Of a DNA stretch of 64,000 nucleotides, positions 1-49,460 are shown piece by piece (within the stretch, counting starts at the first letter, position 1; each line of letters starts with the position of its first letter). The stretch is from Bolinopsis microptera (Eukaryota; Ctenophora; Tentaculata; Lobata; Bolinopsidae). The stretch is from assembly GCF_026151205.1 (NCBI RefSeq), contig NC_087084.1, positions 14,803,760-14,867,759 of the forward strand, given 5' to 3'. The notes beneath the pieces were generated by a model, which was not told where the DNA came from, did not search any database, and saw only the letters and a list, made by a program, of their open reading frames with translations. The position numbers and the translations under genes are program-made.

Positions 1-792
1 CACTATTTGTGTCGGTGTTCCTGTTTTTAATAACGGGAACGTTTGTGGTACTGCCTCTATTCTCGGAGGAAAGTAGGGTCACCACCCTGTTGGGTACGTG
101 AGGAATACTTAATGGATAATTAATTAATTAATTAATTACTTGATGGATAGTTAATTAATTCATTATTAATTACTTAAAATTACCTGTTAAAAGTTCAAGA
201 AACTTCCTAGGATACCCCTTCAGTGCATACTGTAAACATAGTTGATAGTACTATTACTATTATATTACTATTATTACTTAATGGATAATTAATAGATTCA
301 TTCAAATAATGAATCAATTTCTATAATCGTATAAAATTCGTTTTTGGAGGATGAGGGAAGTATTTATTAATAATTAATTAAACACGAAGGATTTTAAAAG
401 AAATATTGCCAATATTTGAACAACAAACCTTGACAGGTCTATGCTGGATACCACTAGGAGCAGCGTTTTACGGTATCCGGCATCTTATAACACGGTATCT
501 TGTTAAGCAGAATGCGGTACCCGGCATCTTATAGCACGGTATCTTGTTAAGCAGAATGCGGTACCCGGCATCTTGTAACATGGTATATTGTTAAGCAGAA
601 TGCGGCATCTTACAGCACGGTATCTTATCAGGTCTAAGCTGGTTACCACTAGGAGCGGCAGTTTACGGCATCCGGCATCTTATTAAACAGTGCTGCTACA
701 AGAAGCTCGAACAGAAGACCTCAAGTCAGTCTAGTTTAGATTCTGGGTATAGTGAGGTTGACCGACACATCAAGGAATGTAAACTTAGCTAA
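1..792 (+). CDS. SLC7-like amino-acid transporter, 3' end only (partial; last two exons)
   Basis: Two terminal exons of a gene that begins before the window. Exon 1-93 is read with codons starting at base 3 and ends in phase 1 at a GT donor (94-95). It encodes a hydrophobic segment containing FLITGTFVVLPLFS, matching the penultimate exon (16954-17050) of the complete neighbouring transporter, which reads FLITGTFVILPLFS. The best terminal exon is 632-792: acceptor TTATCAG, then G|GT, then LSWLPLGAAVYGIRHLI, a cytoplasmic tail rich in Lys, Ser and Gln, and TAA at 790-792. A second copy of this exon (437-534) lies just upstream. The gene is in tandem, same orientation, with the 4634-17269 gene, suggesting local duplication of an amino-acid permease. 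AATAAA signals at 855-860 and 888-893 fit its 3' end. The family assignment rests on the downstream paralogue. Confidence 0.8.
437..534 (+). other. Duplicated alternative last exon of the upstream SLC7-like gene
   Basis: The acceptor TTGACAG is followed by G|GT and LCWIPLGAAFYGIRHLITR, clearly homologous to the exon at 632-792. It then runs into a degenerate repeat and stops at TAG 532-534. It is in the same phase as 632-792, so either could be spliced to 1-93. Its C-terminus is a repeat-derived tail (YLVKQNAVPGIL) instead of the charged tail of the other copy. It is either a mutually exclusive terminal exon or a decaying copy. Confidence 0.65.
463..631 (+). repeat. Degenerate tandem repeat derived from last-exon coding sequence
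   Basis: About three to four copies of a unit of roughly 44 bp containing GGCATCTTAT and GCACGGTATCTTG. The unit starts inside the exon at 437-534 and continues to the acceptor of the next exon copy. It looks like local amplification of the coding end of the exon. Confidence 0.6.
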
Positions 793-4633: not shown

Positions 4634-7600
4634 ATGAAGGGGGACAATGAGATGGCACCACTCTTTAATAAGGTAACATTTTATAGTTTTCTTGTGTTTA
4701 GTTGATAAACTTTGTCCGCGCCAATTTGGCTAAAATATGTGATTTTGAAGTTTAAACGCCAATGAAAACAGAGGAAAAGTATCGGGTGATCCTGACAAAT
4801 ATTTCCTTGTGCTTCAGAAATTTTATTAATCCATACACTAAATAATATATTTCCTTGTGTTTCAGGAAGGGTTTGAACCGAAGGTACAAAGAACAGTAGG
4901 AGTGCTAGCTGCCAGTGCTGTGTTATTTGGAAACTGTGTCGGTGCAGGAATCTTCATTTCTCCCAAAGGTACCCTATTAAGATTTTAGATATCTTCAGAT
5001 TCTGTTTGATTACCAAAGTAAGTAAGACTCTAGTACTAAAATTACCGCTAATAATGTCCCAGGAGTCTACGAGAAGGCAGCAAGCCCTGGAGCAGAACTT
5101 GTTAATTAAAATGGTCCGAGAATTCCGAGTTTTCCAGTAGTATCAACTAGATACCATGCTCAGAGCTAAATAATTGAACTAAATAAATTTTTAAATAAAC
5201 TAAATAACTAATAATTGAACTAAATAAATTTTTAAATAAATTTTCATTTCAGGGGTCTACGAGAAGGCAGGGAGCCCTGGAGCGGGACTGTTGATATGGG
5301 GACTAGCTGGTATTATTGCTACACTCTGTACTCTAGCCTACGCTGAGCTAGGTAATTATTGCTACACTCTGTACTCTAGCCTACGCTGAGCTAGGTAATT
5401 ATTGCTACACTCTGTACTGTAGCCTACGCTGAGCTAGGTAATTATTGCTACACTCTGTACTCTAGCCTACGCTGAGCTAGGTAATTATTGCTACACTCTG
5501 TACTCTAGCCTACGCTGAGCTAGGTAATTATTACTACACTCTGTACTCTAGCCTACGCTGAGCTAGGTAATTATTGCTACACTCTGTACTCTAGCCTACG
5601 CTGAGCTAGGTAATTATTGCTACACTCTGTACTCTAGCCTACGCTGAGCTAGGTAATTATTGCTACACTCTGTACTCTAGCCTACGCTGAGCTAGGTAAT
5701 TATTGCTACACTCTGTACTCTAGCCTACGCTGAGCTAGGTAATTATTACTACACTCTGTACTCTAGCCTACGCTGAGCTAGGTAATTATTGCTACACTCT
5801 GTACTCTAGCCTACGCTGAGCTAGGTAATTATTGCTACACTCTGTACTCTAGCCTACGCTGAGCTAGGTAATTATTGCTACACTCTGTACTCTAGCCTAC
5901 GCTGAGCTAGGTAATTATTGCTACACTCTGTACTCTAGCCTACGCTGAGCTAGGTAATTATTGCTACACTCTGTACTCTAGCCTACGCTGAGCTAGGTAA
6001 TTATTGCTACACTCTGTACTCTAGCCTACGCTGAGCTAGGTAATTATTGCTACACTCTGTACTCTAGCCTACGCTGAGCTAGGTAATTATTGCTACACTC
6101 TGTACTCTAGCCTACGCTGAGCTAGGTAATTATTATTACACTCTGTACTCTAGCCTACGCTGAGCTAGGTAATTATTGCTACACTCTGTACTCTAGCCTA
6201 CGCTGAGCTAGGTAATTATTGCTACACTCTGTACTCTAGCCTACGCTGAGCTAGGTAATTATTGCTACACTCTGTACTCTAGCCTACGCCGAGCTAGGTA
6301 ATTATTGCTACACTCTGTACTCTAGCCTACGCTGAGCTAGGTAATTATTGCTACACTCTGTACTCTAGCCTACGCTGAGCTAGGTAATTATTGCTACACT
6401 CTGTACTCTAGCCTACGCTGAGCTAGGTAATCATTGCTACACTCTGTACTCTAGCCTACGCTGAGCTAGGTAATTATTGCTACACTCTGTACTCTAGCCT
6501 ACGCTGAGCTAGGTAATTATTGCTACACTCTGTACTCTAGCCTACGCTGAGCTAGGTAATTATTGCTACACTCTGTACTGTAGCCTACGCTGAGCTAGGT
6601 AATTATTACTACACTCTGTACTGTAGCCTACGCTGAGCTAGGTAATTATTGCTACACTCTGTACTCTAGCCTACGCTGAGCTAGGTAATTATTGCTACAC
6701 TCTGTACTGTAGCCTACGCTGAGCTAGGTAATTATTACTACACTCTGTACTGTAGCCTACGCTGAGCTAGGTAATTATTGCTACACTCTGTACTGTAGCC
6801 TACGCTGAGCTAGGTAATTATTGCTACACTCTGTACTCTAGCCTACGCTGAGCTAGGTAATTATTGCTACACTCTGTACTGTAGCCTACGCTGAGCTAGG
6901 TAATTATTGCTACACTCTGTACTGTAGCCTACGCTGAGCTAGGTAATTATTGCTACACTCTGTACTCTAGCCTACGCTGAGCTAGGTAATTATTGCTACA
7001 CTCTGTACTCTAGCCTACGCTGAGCTAGGTAATTATTGCTACACTCTGTACTCTAGCCTACGCTGAGCTAGGTAATTATTACTACACTCTGTACTCTAGC
7101 CTACGCTGAGCTAGGTAATTATTGCTACACTCTGTACTCTAGCCTACGCTGAGCTAGGTAATTATTGCTACACTCTGTACTCTAGCCTACGCTGAGCTAG
7201 GTAATTATTGCTACACTCTGTACTCTAGCCTACGCTGAGCTAGGTAATTATTGCTACACTCTGTACTCTAGCCTACGCTGAGCTAGGTAATTATTGCTAC
7301 ACTCTGTACTCTAGCCTACGCTGAGCTAGGTAATTATTGCTACACTCTGTACTCTAGCCTACGCTGAGCTAGGTAATTATTGCTACACTCTGTACTCTAG
7401 CCTACGCCGAGCTAGGTAATTATTGCTACACTCTGTACTCTAGCCTACGCTGAGCTAGGTAATTATTATTACACTCTGTACTCTAGCCTACGCTGAGCTA
7501 GGTAATTATTGCTACACTCTGTACTCTAGCCTACGCTGAGCTAGGTAATTATTGCTACACTCTGTACTCTAGCCTACGCTGAGCTAGGTAATTATTGCTA

Positions 7601-10600
7601 CACTCTGTACTCTAGCCTACGCCGAGCTAGGTAATTATTGCTACACTCTGTACTCTAGCCTACGCTGAGCTAGGTAATTATTGCTACACTCTGTACTCTA
7701 GCCTACGCTGAGCTAGGTAATTATTGCTACACTCTGTACTCTAGCCTACGCTGAGCTAGGTAATCATTGCTACACTCTGTACTCTAGCCTACGCTGAGCT
7801 AGGTAATTATTGCTACACTCTGTACTCTAGCCTACGCTGAGCTAGGTAATTATTGCTACACTCTGTACTCTAGCCTACGCTGAGCTAGGTAATTATTACG
7901 ACACTCTGTACTCTAGCCTACGCTGAGCTAGGTAATTATTGCTACACTCTGTACTGTAGCCTACGCTGAGCTAGGTAATTATTACTACACTCTGTACTGT
8001 AGCCTACGCTGAGCTAGGTAATTATTGCTACACTCTGTACTCTAGCCTACGCTGAGCTAGGTAATTATTGCTACACTCTGTACTGTAGCCTACGCTGAGC
8101 TAGGTAATTATTACTACACTCTGTACTGTAGCCTACGCTGAGCTAGGTAATTATTGCTACACTCTGTACTGTAGCCTACGCTGAGCTAGGTAATTATTGC
8201 TACACTCTGTACTCTAGCCTACGCTGAGCTAGGTAATTATTGCTACACTCTGTACTCTAGCCTACGCGAGCTAGGTAATTATTGCTACACTCTGTACTCT
8301 AGCCTACGCTGAGCTAGGTAATTATTGCTACACTCTGTACTCTAGCCTACGCTGAGCTAGGTAATTATTACTACACTCTGTACTCTAGCCTACGCTGAGC
8401 TAGGTAATTATTGCTACACTCTGTACTCTAGCCTACGCTGAGCTAGGTAATTATTGCTACACTCTGTACTCTAGCCTACGCTGAGCTAGGTAATTATTGC
8501 TACACTCTGTACTCTAGCCTACGCTGAGCTAGGTAATTATTGCTACACTCTGTACTCTAGCCTACGCTGAGCTAGGTAATTATTGCTACACTCTGTACTC
8601 TAGCCTACGCTGAGCTAGGTAATTATTGCTACACTCTGTACTCTAGCCTACGCTGAGCTAGGTAATTATTGCTACACTCTGTACTCTAGCCTACGCTGAG
8701 CTAGGTAATTATTGCTACACTCTGTACTCTAGCCTACGCTGAGCTAGGTAATTATTGCTACACTCTGTACTCTAGCCTACGCTGAGCTAGGTAATTATTG
8801 CTACACTCTGTACTCTAGCCTACGCTGAGCTAGGTAATTATTGCTACACTCTGTACTCTAGCCTACGCTGAGCTAGGTAATTATTGCTACACTCTGTACT
8901 CTAGCCTACGCTGAGCTAGGTAATTATTGCTACACTCTGTACTCTAGCCTACGCTGAGCTAGGTAATTATTGCTACACTCTGTACTCTAGCCTACGCTGA
9001 GCTAGGTAATTATTGCTACACTCTGTACTCTAGCCTACGCTGAGCTAGGTAATTATTGCTACACTCTGTACTCTAGCCTACGCTGAGCTAGGTAATTATT
9101 GCTACACTCTGTACTCTAGCCTACGCTGAGCTAGGTAATTATTGCTACACTCTGTACTCTAGCCTACGCTGAGCTAGGTAATTATTGCTACACTCTGTAC
9201 TCTAGCCTACGCTGAGCTAGGTAATTATTGCTACACTCTGTACTCTAGCCTACGCTGAGCTAGGTAATTATTGCTACACTCTGTACTCTAGCCTACGCTG
9301 AGCTAGGTAATTATTGCTACACTCTGTACTCTAGCCTACGCTGAGCTAGGTAATTATTGCTACACTCTGTACTCTAGCCTACGCTGAGCTAGGTAATTAT
9401 TGCTACACTCTGTACTGTAGCCTACGCTGAGCTAGGTAATTATTGCTACACTCTGTACTCTAGCCTACGCTGAGCTAGGTAATTATTGCTACACTCTGTA
9501 CTCTAGCCTACGCTGAGCTAGGTAATTATTGCTACACTCTGTACTCTAGCCTACGCTGAGCTAGGTAATTATTGCTACACTCTGTACTCTAGCCTACGCT
9601 GAGCTAGGTAATTATTACTACACTCTGTACTCTAGCCTACGCTGAGCTAGGTAATTATTGCTACACTCTGTACTCTAGCCTACGCTGAGCTAGGTAATTA
9701 TTGCTACACTCTGTACTCTAGCCTACGCTGAGCTAGGTAATTATTGCTACACTCTGTACTCTAGCCTACGCTGAGCTAGGTAATTATTGCTACACTCTGT
9801 ACTCTAGCCTACGCTGAGCTAGGTAATTATTGCTACACTCTGTACTCTAGCCTACGCTGAGCTAGGTAATTATTGCTACACTCTGTACTCTAGCCTACGC
9901 TGAGCTAGGTAATTATTGCTACACTCTGTACTCTAGCCTACGCCGAGCTAGGTAATTATTGCTACACTCTGTACTCTAGCCTACGCTGAGCTAGGTAATT
10001 ATTGCTACACTCTGTACTCTAGCCTACGCTGAGCTAGGTAATTATTGCTACACTCTGTACTCTAGCCTACGCTGAGCTAGGTAATTATTGCTACACTCTG
10101 TACTCTAGCCTACGCTGAGCTAGGTAATTATTGCTACACTCTGTACTGTAGCCTACGCTGAGCTAGGTAATTATTACTACACTCTGTACTGTAGCCTACG
10201 CTGAGCTAGGTAATTATTGCTACACTCTGTACTCTAGCCTACGCTGAGCTAGGTAATTATTGCTACACTCTGTACTGTAGCCTACGCTGAGCTAGGTAAT
10301 TATTACTACACTCTGTACTCTAGCCTACGCTGAGCTAGGTAATTATTGCTACACTCTGTACTCTAGCCTACGCTGAGCTAGGTAATTATTGCTACACTCT
10401 GTACTCTAGCCTACGCTGAGCTAGGTAATTATTGCTACACTCTGTACTCTAGCCTACGCCTGAGCTAGGTAATTATTGCTACACTCTGTACTCTAGCCTA
10501 CGCTGAGCTAGGTAATTATTGCTACACTCTGTACTCTAGCCTACGCTGAGCTAGGTAATTATTACTACACTCTGTACTCTAGCCTACGCTGAGCTAGGTA

Positions 10601-13600
10601 ATTATTGCTACACTCTGTACTCTAGCCTACGCTGAGCTAGGTAATTATTGCTACACTCTGTACTCTAGCCTACGCTGAGCTAGGTAATTATTGCTACACT
10701 CTGTACTCTAGCCTACGCTGAGCTAGGTAATTATTGCTACACTCTGTACTCTAGCCTACGCTGAGCTAGGTAATTATTGCTACACTCTGTACTCTAGCCT
10801 ACGCTGAGCTAGGTAATTATTGCTACACTCTGTACTCTAGCCTACGCTGAGCTAGGTAATTATTGCTACACTCTGTACTCTAGCCTACGCTGAGCTAGGT
10901 AATTATTGCTACACTCTGTACTCTAGCCTACGCTGAGCTAGGTAATTATTGCTACACTCTGTACTCTAGCCTACGCTGAGCTAGGTAATTATTGCTACAC
11001 TCTGTACTCTAGCCTACGCTGAGCTAGGTAATTATTGCTACACTCTGTACTCTAGCCTACGCTGAGCTAGGTAATTATTGCTACACTCTGTACTCTAGCC
11101 TACGCTGAGCTAGGTAATTATTGCTACACTCTGTACTCTAGCCTACGCCGAGCTAGGTAATTATTGCTACACTCTGTACTCTAGCCTACGCTGAGCTAGG
11201 TAATTATTGCTACACTCTGTACTCTAGCCTACGCTGAGCTAGGTAATTATTGCTACACTCTGTACTCTAGCCTACGCTGAGCTAGGTAATCATTGCTACA
11301 CTCTGTACTCTAGCCTACGCTGAGCTAGGTAATTATTGCTACACTCTGTACTCTAGCCTACGCTGAGCTAGGTAATTATTGCTACACTCTGTACTCTAGC
11401 CTACGCTGAGCTAGGTAATTATTACGACACTCTGTACTCTAGCCTACGCTGAGCTAGGTAATTATTGCTACACTCTGTACTCTAGCCTACGCTGAGCTAG
11501 GTAATTATTGCTACACTCTGTACTCTAGCCTACGCCGAGCTAGGTAATTATTGCTACACTCTGTACTCTAGCCTACGCCGAGCTAGGTAATTATTGCTAC
11601 ACTCTGTACTGTAGCCTACGCTGAGCTAGGTAATTATTGCTACACTCTGTACTCTAGCCTACGCTGAGCTAGGTTAACAATCAAAACTTAATAACTTTGC
11701 AATCATAACAATACAACTTTAAACAATGAGAAAATCTCAACCAGGGATATTCACAAATAAATGAATAAAATGATTGTTCCCCAGGTACGATGATACCCCA
11801 GAGTGGGGGAGAGTTTGTGTACATAAAGAAAGCGTACGGGAAACTTGCAGCCTTCCTCTTCTCTTTTTGTGCAGTCTTCCTTATCAAGTGAGAAACAAAT
11901 CAGTGGCGAAACCACCTACTGCTCTATTAATCATTATCAATACTTAGCTTTTGTTTCTAGTTTTCTTACAAAAACTGATAACAAGTCTCGCGATAAAAGT
12001 AAACTCGTGCGCTGGTTATACCTTCATGCTAAGTCTTTCCTTCATTCGAATATTTTCATCTTCTCTGAGGGTCGCTCTTGAAGGACGACCCTGGCATTAA
12101 CACTACAACTCTTCTCAGGCCTGCCTCAATGTCAGTGGTTGCCCTGGTGTTCGGGGAGTACTTCTCTCACCTTACTTTGGGGCATGCTAGCAACTTATGG
12201 TTTTCTAAAGGAGTTGGTGCTCTTCTTATAGGTATAGTCCTGTTATTTACAAGACTGACCAAAATAACGACCGGTAAACATTACGATAAATAAACATTAT
12301 CCTCGGATACGTCTTTTTAAAAAACCCAGTTTATTCTAACCCCCTCCCCCTCCCTAGTGGTTCTAGGTATTTTCAACGTAGTGGGAGTACAGGCTATAAC
12401 CAAGCTACTTAGTCTAGCTTCAGTGTTAAAGTTAGCGGTGGTGGGGTTCCTTATCTCGTGTGGTATCACTGTCCTTATCAAGGGTCAAGGTTAGTTGATA
12501 TTATATGTGAAATATATTAAGACGCAATGAAATGATATTATGAAGGAGTATATTAGGACGCAATGAAACTATCACCACTAGATTAATATGTGATCTTTTG
12601 ATTCACAGGTATGCGACAAGGGATCGTTCACATATTACACATTTTGCTTTTCTACGCCTCCTACCACCAAGAAATATTGTTCTTGACAGCTAACCACTAC
12701 CAACAGGAGAAATAGGAAACTTCCAACCTCCCCTTTCCTTTGAAGGGTCCTCTACTAACCCCGCAGACTACGGGCTAGCATTTTACTACTGTCTGTGGAC
12801 ATTCCAAGCCTGGAATTCTCTAAACTACATGACAGGTACAATTCTTAAAGTTTTACTTTTTTACTTTTTACTTTTGCGACGAGTCCCCTAGTTCAGCAAT
12901 TTGGACGAGTATCTCTCGGAGCATCTGATAATCTACACCATGACCATATACAGTATACACATCAGTGGGTGCCCCACGCGCTACAATTTTAAATACATGA
13001 GTTAAGTATTTCTGCTTTTAACAACCTCACAATGAAAATGTTGGCAAACTTCCAAAGTCAGACTAACAAGACCCTTACACTCCCCAGAGGAGCTGAAGAC
13101 ACCAGAGAAGACACTGCCAATAGGAGGGTTGGTGGGGATGGTAGCAGTGGCTGTCAGCTACTTTCTCTGTAACCTAGCTTACCTCATGATGTTCTCACTG
13201 CACCACATTGTGGATACTAAAACTATTGCTATGGTTAGTTGCTAGGTTACTAGTGTAGTTGCTAGGTTACTAGTGTAGTTGCTAGCTTACCTCATGATGT
13301 TCTCACTGCACCACATTGTGGATACTAAAACTATTGCTATGGTTAGTTGCTAGGTTACTAGTGTAGTTGCTAGGTTACTAGTGTAGTTGCTAGCTTACCT
13401 CATGATGTTCTCACTGCACCACATTGTGGATACTAAAACTATTGCTATGGTTAGTTGCTAGGTTACTAGTGTAGTTGCTAGGTTACTAGTGTAGTTGCTA
13501 GCTTACCTCATGATGTTCTCACTGCACCACATTGTGGATACTAAAACTATTGCTATGGTTAGTTGCTAGGTTACTAGTGTAGTTGCTAGGTTACTAGTGT

Positions 13601-16600
13601 AGTTGCTAGCTTACCTCATGATGTTCTCACTGCACCACATTGTGGATACTAAAACTATTGCTATGGTTAGTTACTAGGTTACTAGTGTAGTTGCTAGGTT
13701 ACTAGTGTAGTTGCTAGCTTACCTCATGATGTTCTCACTGCACCACATTGTGGATACTAAAACTATTGCTATGGTTAGTTGCTAGGTTACTAGTGTAGTT
13801 GCTAGGTTACTAGTGTAGTTGCTAGCTTACCTTATGATGTTCTCACTGCACCACATTGTGGATACTAAAACTATTGCTATGGTTAGTTGCTAGGTTACTA
13901 GTGTAGTTGCTAGGTTACTAGTGTAGTTGCTAGGTTACTAGTGTAGTTGCTAGGTTACTAGTGTAGTTGCTAGGTTACTAGTGTAGTTGCTAGCTTACAT
14001 CATGATGTTCTCACTGCACCACATTGTGGATACTAAAACTATTGCTATGGTTAGTTGCTAGGTTACTAGTGTAGTTGCTAGGTTACTAGTGTAGTTGCTA
14101 GCTTACCTCATGATGTTCTCACTGCACCACATTGTGGATACTAAAACTATTGCTATGGTTAGTTGCTAGGTTACTAGTGTAGTTGCTAGGTTACTAGTGT
14201 AGTTGCTAGCTTACATCATGATGTTCTCACTGCACCACATTGTGGATACTAAAACTATTGCTATGGTTAGTACCAGCGGCCAGTTTCTAGTTTTAATAAT
14301 GGATTACAAAGTTTCCTTTTGGCAATTTGGTAACCTGTTGACGAACACATAACACATAACACATAACGTATGGCACAGGGTGGCACAGGGTGGCACAGGG
14401 TGGCACAGGGTGGGTTAACTCATAACTGTGTGGTTATCATCCGTCACCTAATTACTGAATTGCCGTTCTTATCGACTGTCAGTCATTTAGCCCAATCTTG
14501 AGCAATTCGTGCACGCCGTTTTGTGCACGCCGTTTTTTGTGTATTTGTAATGAGCCTTTTGCTTCAGGATAGTGGGTTCATAGCGTTTGGTAGAGCGGGT
14601 GAAATAATAATGACTCTAGGACTGCTGGTGTCGTGTCTAGGTTGTGTCGGAGGTTCTATCTGCTGCATTTCACGGAATCTTCAGGTAAGGACAATTGTTA
14701 AAACAAAGTTGGAAATTCCAGGAATTTAAATTTAGAATTCCTTAATTCAGTTTGGAAATATTTTAATCGGAAGAGGAACTTCTACTGACGTCTGACCTCT
14801 TAGACGCCAAGTCCTCTAATAATTTAATGCATTTGGCCCTGTGCCTCATATCTAATTATTGAACAGTGCAGGCGTACTTTCTGGAGTTTACCGTTATCAG
14901 TACTGTTAATGTTATCAGCCTGCAAACAAATATTTTAATACCAACTTTTAGGAACATTTGTCGGTTGATAAACTTAGTATTTTCTATAATTGAAATCAGA
15001 TTCAGATGTGGAGTATTTCCGATATGAGTGTTTCCTACTTCCATGGGAGCAATTACTAAACATTTTCAACCTTCAAACACAAGTACTTTACTTGTAATTG
15101 TACTCAAATACAAGGAAACATCACCATTCATCCTTCAGTGTACCGCGGACTCTGGAGTGTTTCCTACTTGTATGGGAGGGATTAGCAAACGGTTCCAAAC
15201 TCCCGTTAGAGCTATAATAATCGAGGTAAGAGATTGATTATTTCTTTCGAGATACGTCGTACCAAAGATATAGTGGAAAAATCAAAGTGATTCTCTCACG
15301 TTGAAAATTAAACTCGACGAAGAACCACAAAGAAAAAAATAGTTCAGTGCCAAACCCTAATTTCAAACACAAGGAAATATTTCCAAACTGTATCTCTCTC
15401 AGTGTACGACGATGTGCCTGTACATGTTATTTGACGCGAATGCCCTCATCCCCTTCCTCAGTACAGTAGAGTGGCTGTTTTACTGCGTTACTTTCTCAGT
15501 TATTCTCTACTTGAGATACAAGCACCCTGATACGCACAGACCCTTCAAGGTGAGTCACATACTACAACACCATTAATAACCTTCCCGCTCTTTAAGTGGA
15601 CATGGAGGGAGTGTTTGATCATTAACAACCTTCCCGCTCTTTAAGTGGAGGGAGTGTTTGATCATTAACAACCTTCCCGCTCTTTAAGTGGACATGGAGA
15701 GAGTGTTTGATCATTAACAACCTTCCCGCTCTTTAAGTGGAGGGAGTGTTTGATCATTAACAACCTTCCCGCTCTTTAAGTGGACATGGAGGGAGTGTTT
15801 GATCATTAACAACCTTCCCGCTCTTTAAGTGGAGGGAGTGTTTGATCATTAACAACCTTCCCGCTCTTTAAGTGGACATGGAGGGAGTGTTTGATCATTA
15901 ACAACCTTCCCGCTCTTTAAGTGGAGGGAGTGTTTGATCATTAACAACCTTCCCGCTCTTTAAGTGGACATGGAGGGAGTGTTTGATCATTAACAACCTT
16001 CCCGCTCTTTAAGGGGAGGGAGTGTTTGATCATTAACAACCTTCCCGCTCTTTAAGTGGAGGGAGTGTTTGATCATTAACAACCTTCCCGCTCTTTAAGT
16101 GGAGGGAGTGTTTGATCATTAACAACCTACCCGCTCTTTAAGTGGAGGGAGTTTTTGATCATTAACAACCTTCCCGCTCTTTAAGTGGAGGGAGTGTTTG
16201 ATCATTAACAACCTTCCCGCTCTTTAAGTGGAGGGAGTGTTTGATCATTAAAAACCTTCCCGCTCTTTAAGTGGAGGGAGTGTTTGATCATTAACAACCT
16301 TCCCGCTCTTTAAGTGGAGGGAGTGTTTGATCATTAACAACCTTCCCGCTCTTTAAGTGGAGGGAGTGTTTGATCATTAACAACCTTCCCGCTCTTTAAG
16401 TGGAGGGAGTGTTTGATCATTAACAACCTTCCCGCTCTTTAAGTGGAGGGAGTGTTTGATCATTAACAACCTTCCCGCTCTTTAAGTGGAGGGAGTGTTT
16501 GATCATTAACAACCTTCCCGCTCTTTAAGTGGAGGGAGTGTTTGATCATTAACAACCTACCCGCTCTTTAAGTGGAGGGAGTGTTTGATCATTAACAACC

Positions 16601-17269
16601 TTCCCGCTCTTTAAGGGGAGGGAGTGTTTGATCATTAACAACCTTCCCGCTCTTTAAGTGGAGGGAGTGTTTGATCATTAACAACCTTCCCGCTCTTTAA
16701 GTGGAGGGAGTGTTTGATCATTAACAACCTTCCCGCTCTTTAAGTGGAGGGAGTGTTTGATCATTAACAACCTTCCCGCTCTTTAAGTGGAGGGAGTGTT
16801 TGATCAATCAAAAAAAACGTACTCACAATAGGACACAATCACATCCTACTTCTTGTTCCTAACAGCTTGGATTAATATTTCTGTCTCTCTAGAGACCCCC
16901 TTTATTAGTTCAACTAATTACTTAATTAAACTAATTTAACTAATTTCCTCCAGGTCCCAATATTTATATCAGTTATACTATTCCTGATAACTGGAACTTT
17001 TGTAATCCTACCCCTCTTTTCTCAAAGCAGCCGCATGCCAACTATACTGGGTACTTTTTAATATCATTAACAAATTAACGAATCGAAAAAGTAAATTTAC
17101 AGCCAAGTTTTATATTTCAGCAAAAATTTTCGAATCTAAAATGAAAGCTGGAGTTGAAATTTGAATAATTTAATTATTATTTGCAGGGTTGATGTGGTTA
17201 CCGCTCGGGGCCCTGATGTACGCTGTCAGATACTATACCTCAACGCACTGTAAAGCTTTGACATTGTGA
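4634..17269 (+). CDS. SLC7-family (LAT/cationic-type) amino-acid transporter, 13 exons, 464 aa predicted
   Basis: A plasma-membrane amino-acid permease of the APC superfamily is inferred. I joined these exons: 4634-4672, 4866-4968, 5253-5351, 11785-11887, 12119-12231, 12358-12489, 12707-12835, 13088-13233, 14568-14684, 15139-15225, 15403-15549, 16954-17050, 17187-17269 (TGA). All junctions are GT-AG, phases agree throughout, and the total is 1395 nt. TM1 carries GNCVGAGIFISPKG, the substrate-binding GxG-IF motif of the family. It is followed by LAYAELG, then TMIPQSGGEFVYIKKAYG, then WTFQAWNSLNYMTGEELKTP, and a late CTTMCLYMLFDANALIPFLS region, all in family order. Length is slightly below the usual 480-530 aa because both termini are short. 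ATG 4634 has A at -3. Substrate is unknown. Five introns or exon ends carry tandem arrays. Human LAT proteins pair with a single-pass heavy chain; no partner gene is seen here. Confidence 0.92.
5061..5105 (+). pseudogene. Relic duplicate of transporter exon 3
   Basis: After an AG (5061-5062), the sequence GAGTCTACGAGAAGGCAG continues with AGCCCTGGAGCAGAACTTGTT. This matches the first about 45 bp of exon 3 (5253 onward), then degenerates into TAATTAAAAT. It encodes VYEKAASPGAELVN followed by a stop, so it cannot replace exon 3. Confidence 0.7.
5312..11674 (+). repeat. 43-bp minisatellite, about 148 copies, spanning the exon 3 / intron 3 junction
   Basis: The first unit lies inside exon 3 and encodes IIATLCTLAYAEL. 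Every unit then contains the exon end GCTGAGCTAG and the donor GTAATTATT. Copies differ at a few positions (ATTGCT/ATTACT, TACTCT/TACTGT, GCTGAG/GCCGAG). One unit near 8267 is 1 bp short and one near 10459 is 1 bp long. The last donor is altered to GTTAAC. 43 is not a multiple of 3, and reading through the first donor meets TGA within one unit, so the array must be intronic for a functional protein. Confidence 0.97.
13170..14270 (+). repeat. 108-bp array copying the exon 8 end and its splice donor
   Basis: The unit contains the last about 60 bp of exon 8 (CTTACCTCATGATGTTC to ACTATTGCTATG), the donor GTTAGTTGC, and 20-bp sub-repeats TTGCTAGGTTACTAGTGTAG. The genuine exon end is at 13233. Nine further copies start near 13281, 13389, 13497, 13605, 13713, 13821, 13989, 14097 and 14205. 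The interval before 13989 has extra 20-bp sub-repeats. Lies mostly in intron 8. Confidence 0.95.
14341..14411 (+). repeat. Short tandem repeat GTGGCACAGG (10 bp)
   Basis: About four copies of GGCACAGGGT, preceded by three copies of ACACATA/AACACATA, in intron 8 downstream of the 108-bp array. Confidence 0.7.
15024..15072 (+). pseudogene. Relic duplicate of transporter exon 10
   Basis: GAGTGTTTCCTACTTCCATG and the following bases match exon 10 (15160-15205: GAGTGTTTCCTACTTGTATG, then GGAGGGATTAGCAAACGGTT) with scattered substitutions (GGAGCAATTACTAAACATTT). It has no clear acceptor or donor. It lies just upstream of the real exon, the same geometry as the exon 3 relic. Confidence 0.65.
15572..16805 (+). 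repeat. 43/49-bp minisatellite in transporter intron 11, about 28 copies
   Basis: Unit ATTAACAACCTTCCCGCTCT followed by TTAAGTGGAGGGAGTGTTTGATC. Early copies alternate between a 49-bp form with ACATGG inserted after AGTGG and a 43-bp form; later copies are all 43 bp. It starts 23 bp after the exon 11 donor and is entirely intronic. Confidence 0.95.
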
Positions 17270-17906
17270 AAGATATTGCAGATGTACGCTGTAAGATACT
17301 ACACCTCAACGCACTGTAAAGCTTTGACATTGTGAAAGATATTGCAGATGTACGCTGTCAGATACTATACCTCAACGCACTGTAAAGCTTTGACATTGTG
17401 AAACATATTGCAGATGTACGCTGTCAGATACTATACCTCAACGCACTGTAAAGCTTTGACATTGTGAGCTGATGTACGCTGTCAGATACTATACCTCAAC
17501 GCACTGTAAAGCTTTGACATTGTGAGCTGATGTACGCTGTCAGATACTATACCTCAACGCACTGTAAAGCTTTGACATTGTGAAAGATATTGCAGATGTA
17601 CGCTGTCAGATACTATACCTCAACGCACTGTAAAGCTTTGACATTGTGAAAGATATTGCAGATGTACGCTGTCAGATACTATACCTCAACGCACTGTAAA
17701 GCTTTGACATTGTGAAAGATATTGCAGATGTACGCTGTCAGATACTATACCTCAACGTAAAGCTTTGACATTGTGAAAGATATTGCAGATGAACGCTGTC
17801 AGATACTATACCTCAACGTAAAGCTTTGACATTGTGAAAGATATTGCAGATACTATACCTCAACGCACTGTAAGGCTTTGACATTGTGAAAGATATTGCA
17901 GATGAG
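17215..17906 (+). repeat. 66-bp repeat array derived from the terminal exon
   Basis: The unit begins GATGTACGCTGTCAGATAC inside exon 13, includes the stop (TTGTGA) and ends AAGATATTGCA. About ten copies occur, some shortened (near 17469 and 17526 the tail is missing; later copies lack GCACTG). Only the first copy is coding; the rest would be 3' UTR. Confidence 0.92.
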
Positions 17907-18212
17907 ATCTCAGAAATTAGAAAAGATCCGATCTTGCAGCGGCGTGCATTTATAGGTCAAACAGGGTGGGCCAGAATTAAAGTAACGTCAGGATATTCTG
18001 TTACCTGGTTACTTGTGGACGACTCTGTATATTTATAATTTGTTGAACTATTATAATTTAACGTTTGTTTTATTTGAGGAATGACCTCCAGGACAGGTGT
18101 ATGTTGACACAATTTTTATTTTACTTATTCACATATTCAGTAATTTGTATCTATATTCATTTACTAAGCTATTCTCGTTGTCATTAAATTGTCAAAGAGG
18201 TTTAAAACAAGA

Positions 18213-18440
<228 letters not shown>

Positions 18441-18445
18441 TTTAC

Positions 18446-18573
18446 CGGTACACTAGTTCCAGCAGCCACTACAACGAGTCCCATTATGTAGTCGTTAAAG
18501 CCAACAATACAGCCGAACCTCTCAACTAACAATACCATTCCGTAACTTAGTACTGCTATCCATAGCACACTAC
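18446..18573 (-). CDS. SLC24/NCKX-like exchanger exon: start of the alpha-2 repeat
   Basis: Acceptor TTTCCAG, then GT|AGT through to CCG and donor GTAAAT; phase 1 in, phase 0 out, 42 complete codons. It encodes SVLWIAVLSYGMVLLVERFG and then IMGLVVVAAGTSVP. The last string is the start of the alpha-2 ion-binding repeat of K+-dependent Na+/Ca2+ exchangers, where the next residue is normally the Asp that coordinates cations. That Asp and the rest of the repeat must be on a further exon. I found none between here and 17270. Confidence 0.88.
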
Positions 18574-18811
18574 CTGGAAATATGAACATTTAACACGTGA
18601 CTTCCAAATAAGGGCATAAAATAACGCCGACCTCATTCTGACAAGTTTCAGTGCAGGTAATTGTATTTTAGTGCGAATGTCACTAAATTGATTTTAAAGT
18701 ATATCTTGGTTTATTGGACTAAATTGGATCCACACATTATTGATCTTATATCGTACTATGATTTACCTCTTTCATTCTTTACAGTTCATAGAAATGGACA
18801 ATGGACATGTG

Positions 18812-20603: not shown

Positions 20604-22442
20604 CTAGGGGGCACCATTAGCAACATCTTAAATCTTATGCGAGGGGGGGGGGGGGGGGGGGGGGGGGCACCATTAGCAACATCTTAAATCTTATGCGAGG
20701 GGGGGGGGGGGGGGGTGCACCATTAGCAACATCTTAAATCTTATGCGAGGGGGGGGGGGGGGGCACCATTAGCAACATCTTAAATCTTATGCGAGGGGGG
20801 GGGGGTGCACCATTAGCAACATCTTAAATCTTATGCGAGGGGGGGGGGGGCACCATTAGCAACATCTTAAATCTTATGCGAGGGGGGGGGGGGTGCACCA
20901 TTAGCAACATCTTAAATCTTATGCGAGGGGGGGGGGGGGCACCATTAGCAACATCTTAAATCTTATGCGAGGGGGGGGGGGGGGGGCACCATTAGCAACA
21001 TCTTAAATCTTATGCGAGGGGGGGGGGGGCACCATTAGCAACATCTTAAATATTATGCGAGGGGGGGGGGGGGCGGCACTATTAGCAACATCTTAAATGT
21101 TATGAGAGGGGTGGGGGGGGGGGGGCACCATTAGCAACATCTTAAATCTTATGCGAGGGGGGGGGGGGCACCATTAGCAGCATCTTAAATCTTATGCGAG
21201 GGGGGGGGGGGGGAACCATTAGCAACATCTTAAATCTTATGCGAGGGGGGGGGAACCATTAGCAACATCTTAAATCTTATGCGAGGGGGGGGGGGCACCA
21301 TTAGCAACATCTTAAATCTTATGCGAGGGGGGGGGGGGGAACCATTAGCAACATCTTAAATCTTATGCGAGGGGGGGGGGCACCATTAGCAACATCTTAC
21401 ATCTTATGCGAGGGGGGGGCACCATTAGCAACATCTTAAATCTTATGCGAGGGGGGGGGCACCATTAGCAACATCTTAAATCTTATGCGAGGGGGGGGGG
21501 CACCATTAGCAACATCTTAAATCTTATGCGAGGGGGGGGGGCATCATTAGCAACATCTTAAATCTTATGCGGGGGGGGGGGGACCATTAGCAACATCTTA
21601 AATCTTATGCGAGGGGGGGGGGGCACCATTAGCAACATCTTAAATCTTATGCGAGGGGGGGCACCATTAGCAACATCTTAAATCTTATGCGAGGGGGGGG
21701 GGCACCATTAGCAACATCTTAAATATTATGCGAGGAGGGGGGGCACCATTAGCAACATCTTAAATCTTATGCGAGGGGGGGGGGGGCACCATTAGCAACA
21801 TCTTAAATCTTATGCGAGGGGGGGGGGGCACCATTAGCAACATCTTAAATCTTATGCGAGGGGGGGCACCATTAGCAACATCTTAAATCTTATGCGAGGG
21901 GGGGGGGGCACCATTAGCAACATCTTAAATCTTATGCGGGGGGGGGAACCATTAGCAACATCTTAAATCTTATGCGAGGGGGGGGGGGGGCACCATTAGC
22001 AACATCTTAAATCTTATGCGAGGGGGGGGGGGGCACCATTAGCAACATCTTAAATCTTATGCGAGGGGGGGCACCATTAGCAACATCTTAAATCTTATGC
22101 GAGGGGGGGGGGGGGGGCACCATTAGCAACATCTTAAATCTTATGCGGGGGGGGGGACCATTAGCAACATCTTAAATCTTATGCGAGGGGGGGGGGGCAC
22201 CATTAGCAACATCTTAAATCTTATGCGAGGGGGGGGGGGGGCACCATTAGCAACATCTTAAATCTTATGCGAGGGGGGGCACCATTAGCAAAATCTTAAA
22301 TCTTATGCGAGGGGGGGGGGGGCACCATTAGCAACATCTTAAATATTATGCGAGGAGGGGGGGGGCACCATTAGCAACATCTTAAATATTATGCGAGGGG
22401 TGGGGGGGGCACCATTAGCAAGCATCATCTTAAATCTTATGC
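20604..22442 (+). repeat. Poly-G-containing minisatellite, about 42 copies
   Basis: The unit is CACCATTAGCAACATCTTAA, then ATCTTATGCGA, then a run of about 7 to 27 G. Variation is mostly in the G-run length. It abuts the acceptor of the exchanger loop exon (20603). The last copy near 22430 is expanded to AGCAAGCATCATC. Confidence 0.97.
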
Positions 22443-22885
22443 GGAAAGCTTACCTCCTCATTCTTCAAATATTGGGCGGGCATTTTGGTTTCAATTAAAA
22501 GTTAAAACTCAGAGCACTCTATTCCCGACCAATTAAGTAACGCTTACCATACTAAACGTTACCATGAAACTTAATGATTTTCGAAATATTACCGCGACCT
22601 ATGATATAGCATTACACTAGGATCAAGAAGTGTCAAATTTATCCAGAACTGAAATCATCATTGTCAGGAAATCAGGAGTTCTAGCTAATTTAAAATCTCA
22701 TGGCTATTGCACTTCGCAGTTTCATATTACTAATGTGAATACCCGTGCCAACTGACTAATCTGCGAATGAGTAATACTTGCCTAGAGAAAAATTGGGAAC
22801 TTCAAGACCAACTAATTTTGGGAGGAAGTAAAATACATTTTAATTTTTTTGTTTCTCCAGTCTTTTTGCCCGGGCTCTTTTCAAT

Positions 22886-24005
22886 ATGTCTGTACCTCAC
22901 GACTACTCCAATAAAACGGTGTACGGAATTCAGAGCACAGCAGCGAGATACACGTGGGCAGGATACTGTCTCCTCGTTCTTATCTCCTCCCTCATTGGAG
23001 ACACTACTATTCTCATAGCAGCCATAAAATACCAAGTATTCAAACTCAACCGACTCCTGGTGGTTATGATCCTGCATTTAACGGTGTGTGATCTGCTGTT
23101 CTGCATTGTATCTCCCGTTCTGCCCATGATAGTATCCATGATAGCTGATGACTGGGTCCTAGGAAGATGGTTAAGCTTTGTACAGGTTTACTCTTCATTT
23201 TATATCAAAGCTGTTGGAATGTCCCTTATCTGCGCCATGACTTGTACCAAGCTGGTTGTCCTTCATTTTCCTTTGAGAGCTAGGTCAGTAGAAACAAGAC
23301 ATGCACATATCGGATGTGCTGTTGTCTGGACTTTATTGTTGAGTCTGCCAGTTACCTTGATATCCTTTTATGGAGACAACGTCTTCTTCAGCTATCAGCA
23401 TTACAGTAACAGTTTTGACACAAGTTCCTGGAAGTACCTAATGCCAGTGCTGATTGGGATCTTCATGTTAGTCCCACTAACTATAGTCATCATCACAACC
23501 TCTCTGCTTATCAGGTATCTGATCAAATCAAGGATAACTTCAACACGCTGCCAGGCAGCACCAAGATGGCAAGGAATCGCCACAGTCTCTCTGACAGCTC
23601 TCATCTACTGTATATCCGTCCTACCATACGCGATCTACCGTATAACTGCGTCCTATTTTGAGAAACAATCTGCCGTTCACACTACCTACTATCAGGGACA
23701 AAAGGATTTCGCGGCATGTACGAAATCGCGAAATTTCCCATTCTCCGCGACAAATTTTATGTATAGTTTAATGTATAGCCTGTTAACTTTCGCGGTACCG
23801 CGATTTTTGGCCAAAATAATCGCGAAATCCTTTTGTCCCTGCCTACTATAGACTAGCTCTATCTTGTAGCTTCCTTGATATAGTCAGCAACTTCATCATC
23901 TACTGTGCTACTGTGAGGAGCTTCAGGCAGTGGCTAAGGTTGAAGATACGGTGGTTTTACCAGCTTGTCACCAACCTTATCTCTAATAACGGTAACTTAT
24001 ATTGA
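22886..24005 (+). pseudogene. Divergent class A (rhodopsin-like) GPCR, single coding exon, TM7 interrupted by a hAT MITE
   Basis: ATG 22886 (MSVPHDYSNKT, N-glycosylation sequon at Asn9) opens a seven-helix receptor. TM1 is about 24-47, TM2 about 57-84 with LTVCD (Asp69), TM3 about 98-120, TM4 about 141-160, TM5 about 184-210, TM6 about 231-252 (YCISVLPYAIY). The DRY position reads Thr-Lys-Leu (121-123), and the usual TM1 Asn is Asp. At residue 269 a 149-bp element (23693-23841) intervenes. The native frame resumes at 23850 with LDIVSNFIIY (the NPxxY position, Pro replaced by Phe), then SFRQWLRLK as helix 8, and TGA 24003-24005. Without the insertion and one target-site copy the receptor would be 320 aa. 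With it, the frame stays open through the element and stops at 23851, giving 321 aa without TM7. Ligand unknown. Nested in an exchanger intron on the opposite strand. Confidence 0.88.
23693..23841. mobile_element. hAT-type MITE, 149 bp, with 8-bp target-site duplication
   Basis: Perfect 21-bp terminal inverted repeats start CAGGGACAAAAGGATTTCGC. The flanking 8-bp direct repeat is CCTACTAT (23685-23692 and 23842-23849). CAGGG termini plus an 8-bp duplication are typical of the hAT superfamily. There is no transposase; the interior is AT-rich with further short CGCGAAAT-type inverted motifs. The lack of decay in the terminal repeats and duplication indicates a recent insertion. Confidence 0.92.
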
Positions 24006-49047: not shown

Positions 49048-49283
49048 CTGTAAGGGGGAACAGTTGTGTTTATGAAGGAGCAATGCTATATACCTTTTGT
49101 GAAGGAGTATTTGTGTAGAAACATGATCGTGTAGTTTAATTAGAGTAAATTTCACTGGTTGAGGATTATAACTAAGTTTTTCTAATATACTAAGAAAATC
49201 GCAGCTAAGTAGTCAAATAATGCCCAATTATTAATTAGCATCTAAATGATTAACACCTAATTAATTACCGCCTAATAGATTAC

Positions 49284-49388
49284 CTGCTGCCATGAAAGTA
49301 GCCCCAGCCACATCTTCTGACAAGTCTAATCGCTGACAAATAACCACCAGCGAGGGTACGAAATAGTCGTCACAAACCACGGCTATAG
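49284..49388 (-). CDS. SLC24/NCKX-like exchanger exon: TM1 end and start of alpha-1 repeat
   Basis: Acceptor CCCGCAG, then CT|ATA, to GCA GCA G|GTAATC; phase 1 in and out. It encodes [20 protein letters not shown] followed by [15 protein letters not shown]. IVCDDxFVPSLxxI...[15 protein letters not shown] is the hallmark N-terminal part of the NCKX alpha-1 repeat. The upstream exon(s), which should supply the signal/leader and the rest of TM1, were not found between here and 64000. Confidence 0.93.
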
Positions 49389-49414
49389 CTGCGGGGGAAC
49401 AGAGGATTAGTTTG

Positions 49415-49460
49415 TAATTAACTAATTAGTTTGTAATTAACTAATTAGTTTGTAATTAAC
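49415..49460. repeat. Short tandem repeat of AGTTTGTAATTAACTAATT
   Basis: About three copies of an 18-bp unit close to the acceptor side of the alpha-1 exon. Confidence 0.7.

Follow-up and report, generated by a model that had tools for sequence, protein, structure and literature searches.

A tandem array of candidate 5′ splice sites (donors) occupies most of the third intron of a predicted amino acid transporter gene, here called gene B, of the ctenophore Bolinopsis microptera. The gene lies in a stretch of 64,000 nucleotides of contig NC_087084.1 (positions 14,803,760 to 14,867,759 of the forward strand), referred to below as the window, and positions are those of the window unless another locus is named. 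The explanation that we favour, at a probability of approximately 0.7, is that a minisatellite captured the end of exon 3 and that the expanded array would be tolerated because the first junction leaves the mRNA unchanged. Both the donor that is actually used and the absence of any benefit provided by the array are inferred.

The donor array in intron 3 of gene B

The donor array is real. Tandem Repeats Finder (TRF) identified a 43-bp unit in 148.2 copies at positions 5305–11674, with 98% matches, and cutting the sequence at CTAG/GT (the slash marks a splice junction or a join between units) yielded 148 TAG/GT junctions, from 5352 to 11673, which enclose 147 units. The initial annotation, which had claimed about 148 tandem copies of a 43-bp donor unit, is confirmed in this respect. 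The features that make up this region are as follows.

5253..5351, + strand: exon 3 of gene B, 99 nt, in phase 1 at either end; the unit derives from its final 42 nt (5310–5351)
5352..11672, + strand: 147 intronic units, GTAATTATT...GAGCTAG (TRF and cutting at CTAG/GT)
11673..11784, + strand: remainder of intron 3 outside the array, 112 bp, GTTAAC...CCCCAG, which opens with the last donor, a weak one (11673), and closes with the only acceptor (11784)
11785..11887, + strand: exon 4 of gene B

All 147 units have the same orientation, and their lengths are 43 bp in 145 units, 42 bp in one, and 44 bp in one. The units were classified into ten types, of which the commonest accounts for 106 of the 147, seven other 43-bp types together account for 39, and two indel types were found once each. 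The sequence TAG/GTAAT is present at 147 of the 148 junctions (144 with GTAATTA and three with GTAATCA), i.e. at the end of exon 3, which forms the first junction, and at 146 internal unit joins; the last junction is TAG/GTTAAC. The intron is 6433 bp long and its acceptor AG ends at 11784, so the description of the donors as near-identical copies that share one acceptor also holds. The array donor matches the consensus at 7/9 positions, which places it joint fourth among the 12 donors of gene B, and the last junction matches at 5/9. A chance origin of the 148 donors is excluded, since only 108 donor-like 9-mers scoring at least 7/9 occur on the + strand of the 57,624 bp that flank the array. 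A search of the window against Rfam at gathering thresholds gave 0 matches.

The copy number given here is that of the assembly, which is its sole source, and it could for this reason be an assembly artefact. This is very improbable, given that the variant units are irregularly placed, with one seven-unit block that recurs exactly and with the two indel units, and that a separate 27-unit array is present at a paralogous gene, gene A (see below).

Gene structure and reading frame

Gene B consists of 13 exons from 4634 to 17269, each of them an open frame with GT and AG at its borders, and its product is 464 amino acids (aa) in length. In addition to exons 3 and 4, the following exons were identified.

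4634..4672, + strand: exon 1, with the start codon (splice-site and frame reconstruction)
4866..4968, + strand: exon 2 (splice-site and frame reconstruction)
12119..12231, + strand: exon 5
12358..12489, + strand: exon 6
12707..12835, + strand: exon 7
13088..13233, + strand: exon 8, the last 60 nt of which are repeated downstream
14568–14684, 15139–15225, 15403–15549, and 16954–17050, + strand: exons 9–12
17187..17269, + strand: last exon, to the stop codon TGA

The protein matches the Pfam family AA_permease_2 (E 2.6e-52, residues 25–433), in agreement with the transporter identity first proposed for this gene, and its best matches in PDB are cystine/glutamate and b(0,+)-type transporters (SLC7 group). 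The product is thus predicted to be an SLC7-type amino acid transporter. When all 148 junctions were joined to 11785 and translated, the first gave the 464-aa product and the other 147 gave a stop after 92 aa, as did full retention of intron 3; the earlier statement that the first donor alone keeps the frame is therefore correct.

Origin of the repeat unit

The unit is identical to the final 42 nt of exon 3 except for one additional A following nucleotide 2 or 3, and it is purely exonic, containing no original intron sequence. It had been described as the tail of exon 3 plus its donor; the exon tail is indeed present, but the old donor is not part of the unit. Because the unit is the exon 3 tail with one added A, the array donor GTAATTATT (GTAATT) is made from the coding sequence GTATTATT, abutting the exon end CTAG.

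Two tandem paralogs, genes A and Z, are located upstream of gene B, and a whole-genome protein search identified a further relative on chromosome 4 (C4). In gene A (L012, C13:14793760–14803759, continuing in the window at 1–790), intron 3 is 1273 bp long and contains the same array in 27 units, with the unit and flanks of gene B and some variants shared with it; 27 TAG/GTAAT donors are present and the last junction is TAC/GTTAAC. Gene Z (L033 and L011) has one donor, TAG/GTACGC, and an intron 3 of 222 bp, and exon 3 of the C4 relative ends in TTG/GTAAGG, i.e. one donor followed by a 121-bp intron. Exon 3 is 99 nt long and in the same phase in all four genes, and in the array-free Z and C4 paralogs it is followed by an intron that agrees in position and phase. 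The non-array part of intron 3 of gene B (112 bp) is on the scale of these introns of Z and C4. A DNA search of the genome with exon 3 and the array located the array only at A and B, although the counts may be lower bounds. Because Z and C4 carry an intron at this position and the array is found at A and B only, the intron after exon 3 is most likely older than the array, which would be a derived feature of A and B.

These comparisons suggest the following sequence of events. Before the 5′ halves of A and B diverged from their common ancestor, the 42 nt at the end of exon 3 would have been duplicated in tandem with an extra A, joining the exon end ...GAGCTAG to the exon-internal GT(A)ATT and creating an AG/GT junction that could serve as a donor. 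This new donor would have arisen in front of an already existing intron, and repeated unequal exchange or slippage would then have expanded the array until it comprised 27 units in A and 147 in B.

Two further observations were made around exon 3. Intron 2 of gene B contains, at 5060–5102, a decayed and incomplete copy of the acceptor side and the first part of this exon, which gene A shares. In the C4 paralog, an array of ~36 copies of TTTCAC lies directly before the exon 3 acceptor (L036:1386–1600, minus strand), at about the place where a pyrimidine tract is expected.

Sequence divergence between genes A and B

In exons 1–8, A and B differ at 17 codons, 11 synonymous and 6 non-synonymous (dS 0.053 and dN 0.009 for the synonymous and non-synonymous differences, respectively), and three of the six replacements fall in the 13-residue first exon. 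In exons 4–8, downstream of the array, nine differences are synonymous and three are non-synonymous, where 655 of the 864 sites are non-synonymous (binomial p 3e-4 in a simple pairwise count, which includes no transition bias and does not test A and B separately). Since the differences between the two genes are mostly synonymous in this pairwise rather than per-gene comparison, they argue that the full-length protein is still made.

The same comparison bears on two other explanations. In the first, which was put forward in the initial annotation, the array is a copy-number-dependent tuner of expression: the use of inner donors rises with copy number and leads to a premature stop and degradation of the transcript, so that array length sets expression. 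The 92-aa product of 147 of the 148 donors, the donor strength, which is ordinary for gene B (7/9), and the difference in copy number between the paralogs (27 versus 147 units) are all in line with this proposal. However, it is not supported as stated. The change between A and B is mostly synonymous (11 of 17 codons) despite the difference in copy number, and no sign of selection on copy number was seen; we regard it as unlikely. In the second, gene B is being lost: the array blocks correct splicing, transcripts either skip exon 3 in frame or retain the intron, and the function is provided by A or Z. Skipping of exon 3 would indeed preserve the frame (99 nt, phase 1-1), and the length of intron 3, 6433 bp, is in marked contrast to the 126–454 bp of the gene B introns without long arrays. 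The intact state of 13/13 exons and the mostly synonymous changes between A and B nevertheless make such a loss distinctly improbable.

Choice among the donors

If a captured minisatellite is tolerated in gene B, the upstream-most donor would be used, leaving the mRNA unchanged. Alternatively, units spliced late could be removed as GT...AG pieces, and the same mRNA could result from such piecemeal removal because each unit starts with GT and ends with AG (147/147), a route that the initial annotation had not considered.

Several points weigh against the tolerated-minisatellite explanation. Donor 1 is indistinct by sequence, with 144 of the 148 junctions being identical over 10 nt. In RNA folding, which covered only positions 5101–7000, the probability that the donor 9-mer is unpaired was 0.0050 for donor 1 versus 0.0043 on average for the inner donors (to ~6900), and at positions +1 to +4, donors 1, 2, and 4 were more open (0.04–0.06) than the other nine of the 12 (0.015–0.018). 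No homology was found between intron 3 of gene Z and the 112-bp remainder of gene B (212 of 500 shuffles score as high), and the ancestral donor is for this reason not proven. The selection test is a simple count for one pair of genes, A and B, between which sequence may have been exchanged. Finally, when two equal donors compete, experiments are reported to show a preference for the one nearer the intron, a choice that would be non-productive in gene B; if this preference applied fully, gene B would yield no complete protein. According to PMC5585400, proximal 5′ sites are favoured by SRSF1 and distal ones by hnRNP A1.

RNA accessibility was considered as a cue for the first donor and was rejected, since the 9-mer values do not differ and donors 2 and 4, like donor 1, are more open than the other nine at +1 to +4.

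A different explanation is self-correcting recursive removal, in which the AG/GT joins act as acceptor and donor at once (zero-length exons), unit blocks are excised, and wrong choices are repaired. Any block of units is formally a GT...AG intron (147/147 units) whose excision regenerates TAG/GT, and a block of three units, at 129 nt, is already as long as the shortest intron of gene B (126 nt). Against this, a single 43-nt unit is far below that length, and the unit ends (GCTGAGCTAG), as judged by eye, do not have the pyrimidine run that is seen before many acceptors of gene B; the text before the unit AG is GCCTACGCTGAGCTAG, in which, again by eye, a clear pyrimidine tract is not evident. 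We consider recursive removal to be unlikely, marginally more so than the expression tuner; if it were true, a genome could multiply a splice site without losing the gene.

Arrays at exon 8 and at the gene end, and the hybrid structure of gene A

Two further arrays were found at coding boundaries of gene B.

13174..14265, + strand: second donor array, exon 8 tail plus ATG/GTTAGT, 10 copies if the real exon end is counted, carried on a 108-bp unit that itself contains 20-bp repeats
17215..17903, + strand: third array, at the coding end, with a 66-bp unit consisting of the last coding bases, TGA, and 11 nt (TRF)

Including the real exon, copies of the exon 8 tail number 10, 4, and 4 in genes B, A, and Z, respectively, and all of them are followed by GTTAGT, except one copy in A that is followed by GTGAGA. 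The repeats of tail and donor cover 13174–14271 in B; in A (L012:6783–8233) and Z (L011:2171–3861), the tails are scattered within a 20-bp repeat, with 72 and 84 copies, respectively. The 66-bp coding-end array comprises 10.0 copies by TRF to 17851, followed by a shorter variant unit to 17903. The last coding bases are also repeated at the gene ends of A (window 471–605) and Z (L011:5739–5921), in a different 44-bp unit present three to four times. Separate captures of the exon 3 end, the exon 8 end, and the last coding bases are found in one gene family, which speaks for the minisatellite explanation.

The 5′ half of gene A resembles gene B, with identities of 92–100% in exons 1–8 and of 95.1–99.6%, over aligned stretches, in introns 1, 2, 4, 5, and 6 and the right flank of intron 3; intron 7 is 83.3% identical, with 41 gap positions. 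The 3′ half of gene A and the following intergenic stretch match gene Z. Three diagnostic sites in the exon 8 tail are of the B type in the first two copies of gene A and of the Z type in copies 3 and 4, and a fourth diagnostic site is mixed in A. Gene A is a hybrid, and because its copies switch from B-type to Z-type, the crossover most likely took place in the exon 8 donor array, at L012:7189 to 7617 or inside the 7189 copy.

Tandem repeats elsewhere in the window and the genome

Tandem repeats account for 16.7% of 200 kb sampled elsewhere in the genome and 53.5% of the window. Such a richness of the sampled genome in tandem repeats supports the minisatellite explanation. The sample consisted of 20 stretches of 10 kb (C1–C13, first 9 Mb) and contained 90 arrays of period 15 or more; 76 of these were touched by a total of 175 open frames, which were searched against Pfam at E up to 0.05. 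In 83 frames, eight families were matched, all at E 0.019 or worse, and in 92 frames, 10 families were matched, the best being SRCR (7.7e-11), FAM194 (3.1e-10), 5_nucleotid_C (0.0012), DUF7569 (0.0048), and CATIP_N (0.0098); these numbers represent a floor, as Pfam often misses short exons. When the SRCR, FAM194, and 5_nucleotid_C frames were assigned by eye, only the FAM194 case was found to span splice sites, the SRCR repeat being inside the reading frame and the 5_nucleotid_C array being in the intron preceding the exon. In the FAM194-like exon (L022, by eye; minus strand, 107–141 and 206–339), the donor lies in a 16-bp duplication of 2.2 copies, and a 67-bp duplication (two copies) extends across the acceptor and the exon start. 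The notion that boundary arrays are confined to the donor side is weakened by this acceptor-side duplication.

The largest number of copies in the sample (period 15 or more) was 84 over 4897 bp, in an array that runs past the end of its stretch, and an array of the size found in gene B is accordingly unusual here but not outlandish. Period 43 is absent from the list of the 12 commonest periods in this sample of 90 arrays, and it also occurs in two window arrays with other units, at 15571–16806 (28 copies) and 20656–22443 (42 copies).

Between 18 kb and the end of the window, 59 frames yielded matches to four families, Na_Ca_ex (1.1e-6), Collagen (0.0016), DUF2427 (0.021), and DUF485 (0.025). 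An SLC24-like exon (Na_Ca_ex, by eye; 49230–49425, minus strand) has a donor, GTAATC, that opens a 15-bp imperfect array (49230–49284), and in a second SLC24-like exon (by eye; 18210–18580, minus strand) the donor G/GTAAAT is followed at once by a TCTG array of ~230 bp. A rhodopsin-family receptor is encoded in a single open frame at 22886–23851 (Pfam 7tm_1, E 1.5e-11). Of two glutamate receptors of this genome compared with PDB, one has three ML032222a iGluR sequences and a 'glutamate receptor kainate-like protein' (4zdm), which are proteins of Mnemiopsis and Pleurobrachia, as its four best matches, and the other lacks this pattern among the 60 matches listed.

Relation to known systems and significance

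The closest precedent is the donor minisatellite of human IFI6 (6-16), of which the gene B array can be viewed as an extreme variant. The IFI6 array reportedly contains ~26 repeats, and as their length of 12 nt is divisible by 3, extra units remain in frame, whereas the inner donors of gene B break the frame (a stop after 92 aa from 147 of the 148). Two downstream repeat units of IFI6 are described as serving as splice donors, giving rise to three mRNAs (PMC4526556). The gene B array likewise begins at the 3′ end of an exon and has a candidate donor in each unit; it differs in having 147 units of 43 nt, in that all inner donors are non-productive, and in the derivation of its unit from an exon.

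Intron gain via tandem duplication of an AGGT-containing exon segment has been reported (Rogers 1989; Hellsten 2011; PMC4974935). In both situations, an exonic tandem duplication makes GT and AG at the joins and the encoded protein is unchanged, but the intron here would have pre-existed, as indicated by the Z and C4 paralogs, and would have been extended by new donors rather than newly formed. In Schizosaccharomyces, SPOG_01682 and SOCG_00815 have introns of 24-nt tandem repeats (Zhu and Niu 2013, PMC3629103), which span four and two duplicates (PMC4974935). These introns also consist of tandem copies similar to the neighbouring exon, but the copies are few, the introns are new, and the unit length is a multiple of 3. 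The recursive splice sites known so far occur singly, at intervals along long introns. Recursive splicing at zero-length exons (PMC5126111, PMC2773006) shares with gene B juxtaposed AG/GT junctions that are able to regenerate a donor, whereas gene B has 147 in tandem, without evident pyrimidine tracts. Judged by title, no comparable donor array was found among the matches listed in literature searches, which included ctenophore tandem repeats. What seems to be new here is a far larger, frame-breaking, exon-built donor array for which array-free paralogs are available for comparison.

Work on how the spliceosome chooses among identical 5′ splice sites usually relies on a small number of engineered copies. 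The genome of B. microptera offers a natural series, in which the same exon is followed by one donor (Z and C4), 27 TAG/GTAAT donors (A), or 147 of them (B), and gene B provides a strict readout, as the full protein would be obtained only from the first donor. This gene family also illustrates how exon ends turn into minisatellites and into crossover points that make hybrid genes.

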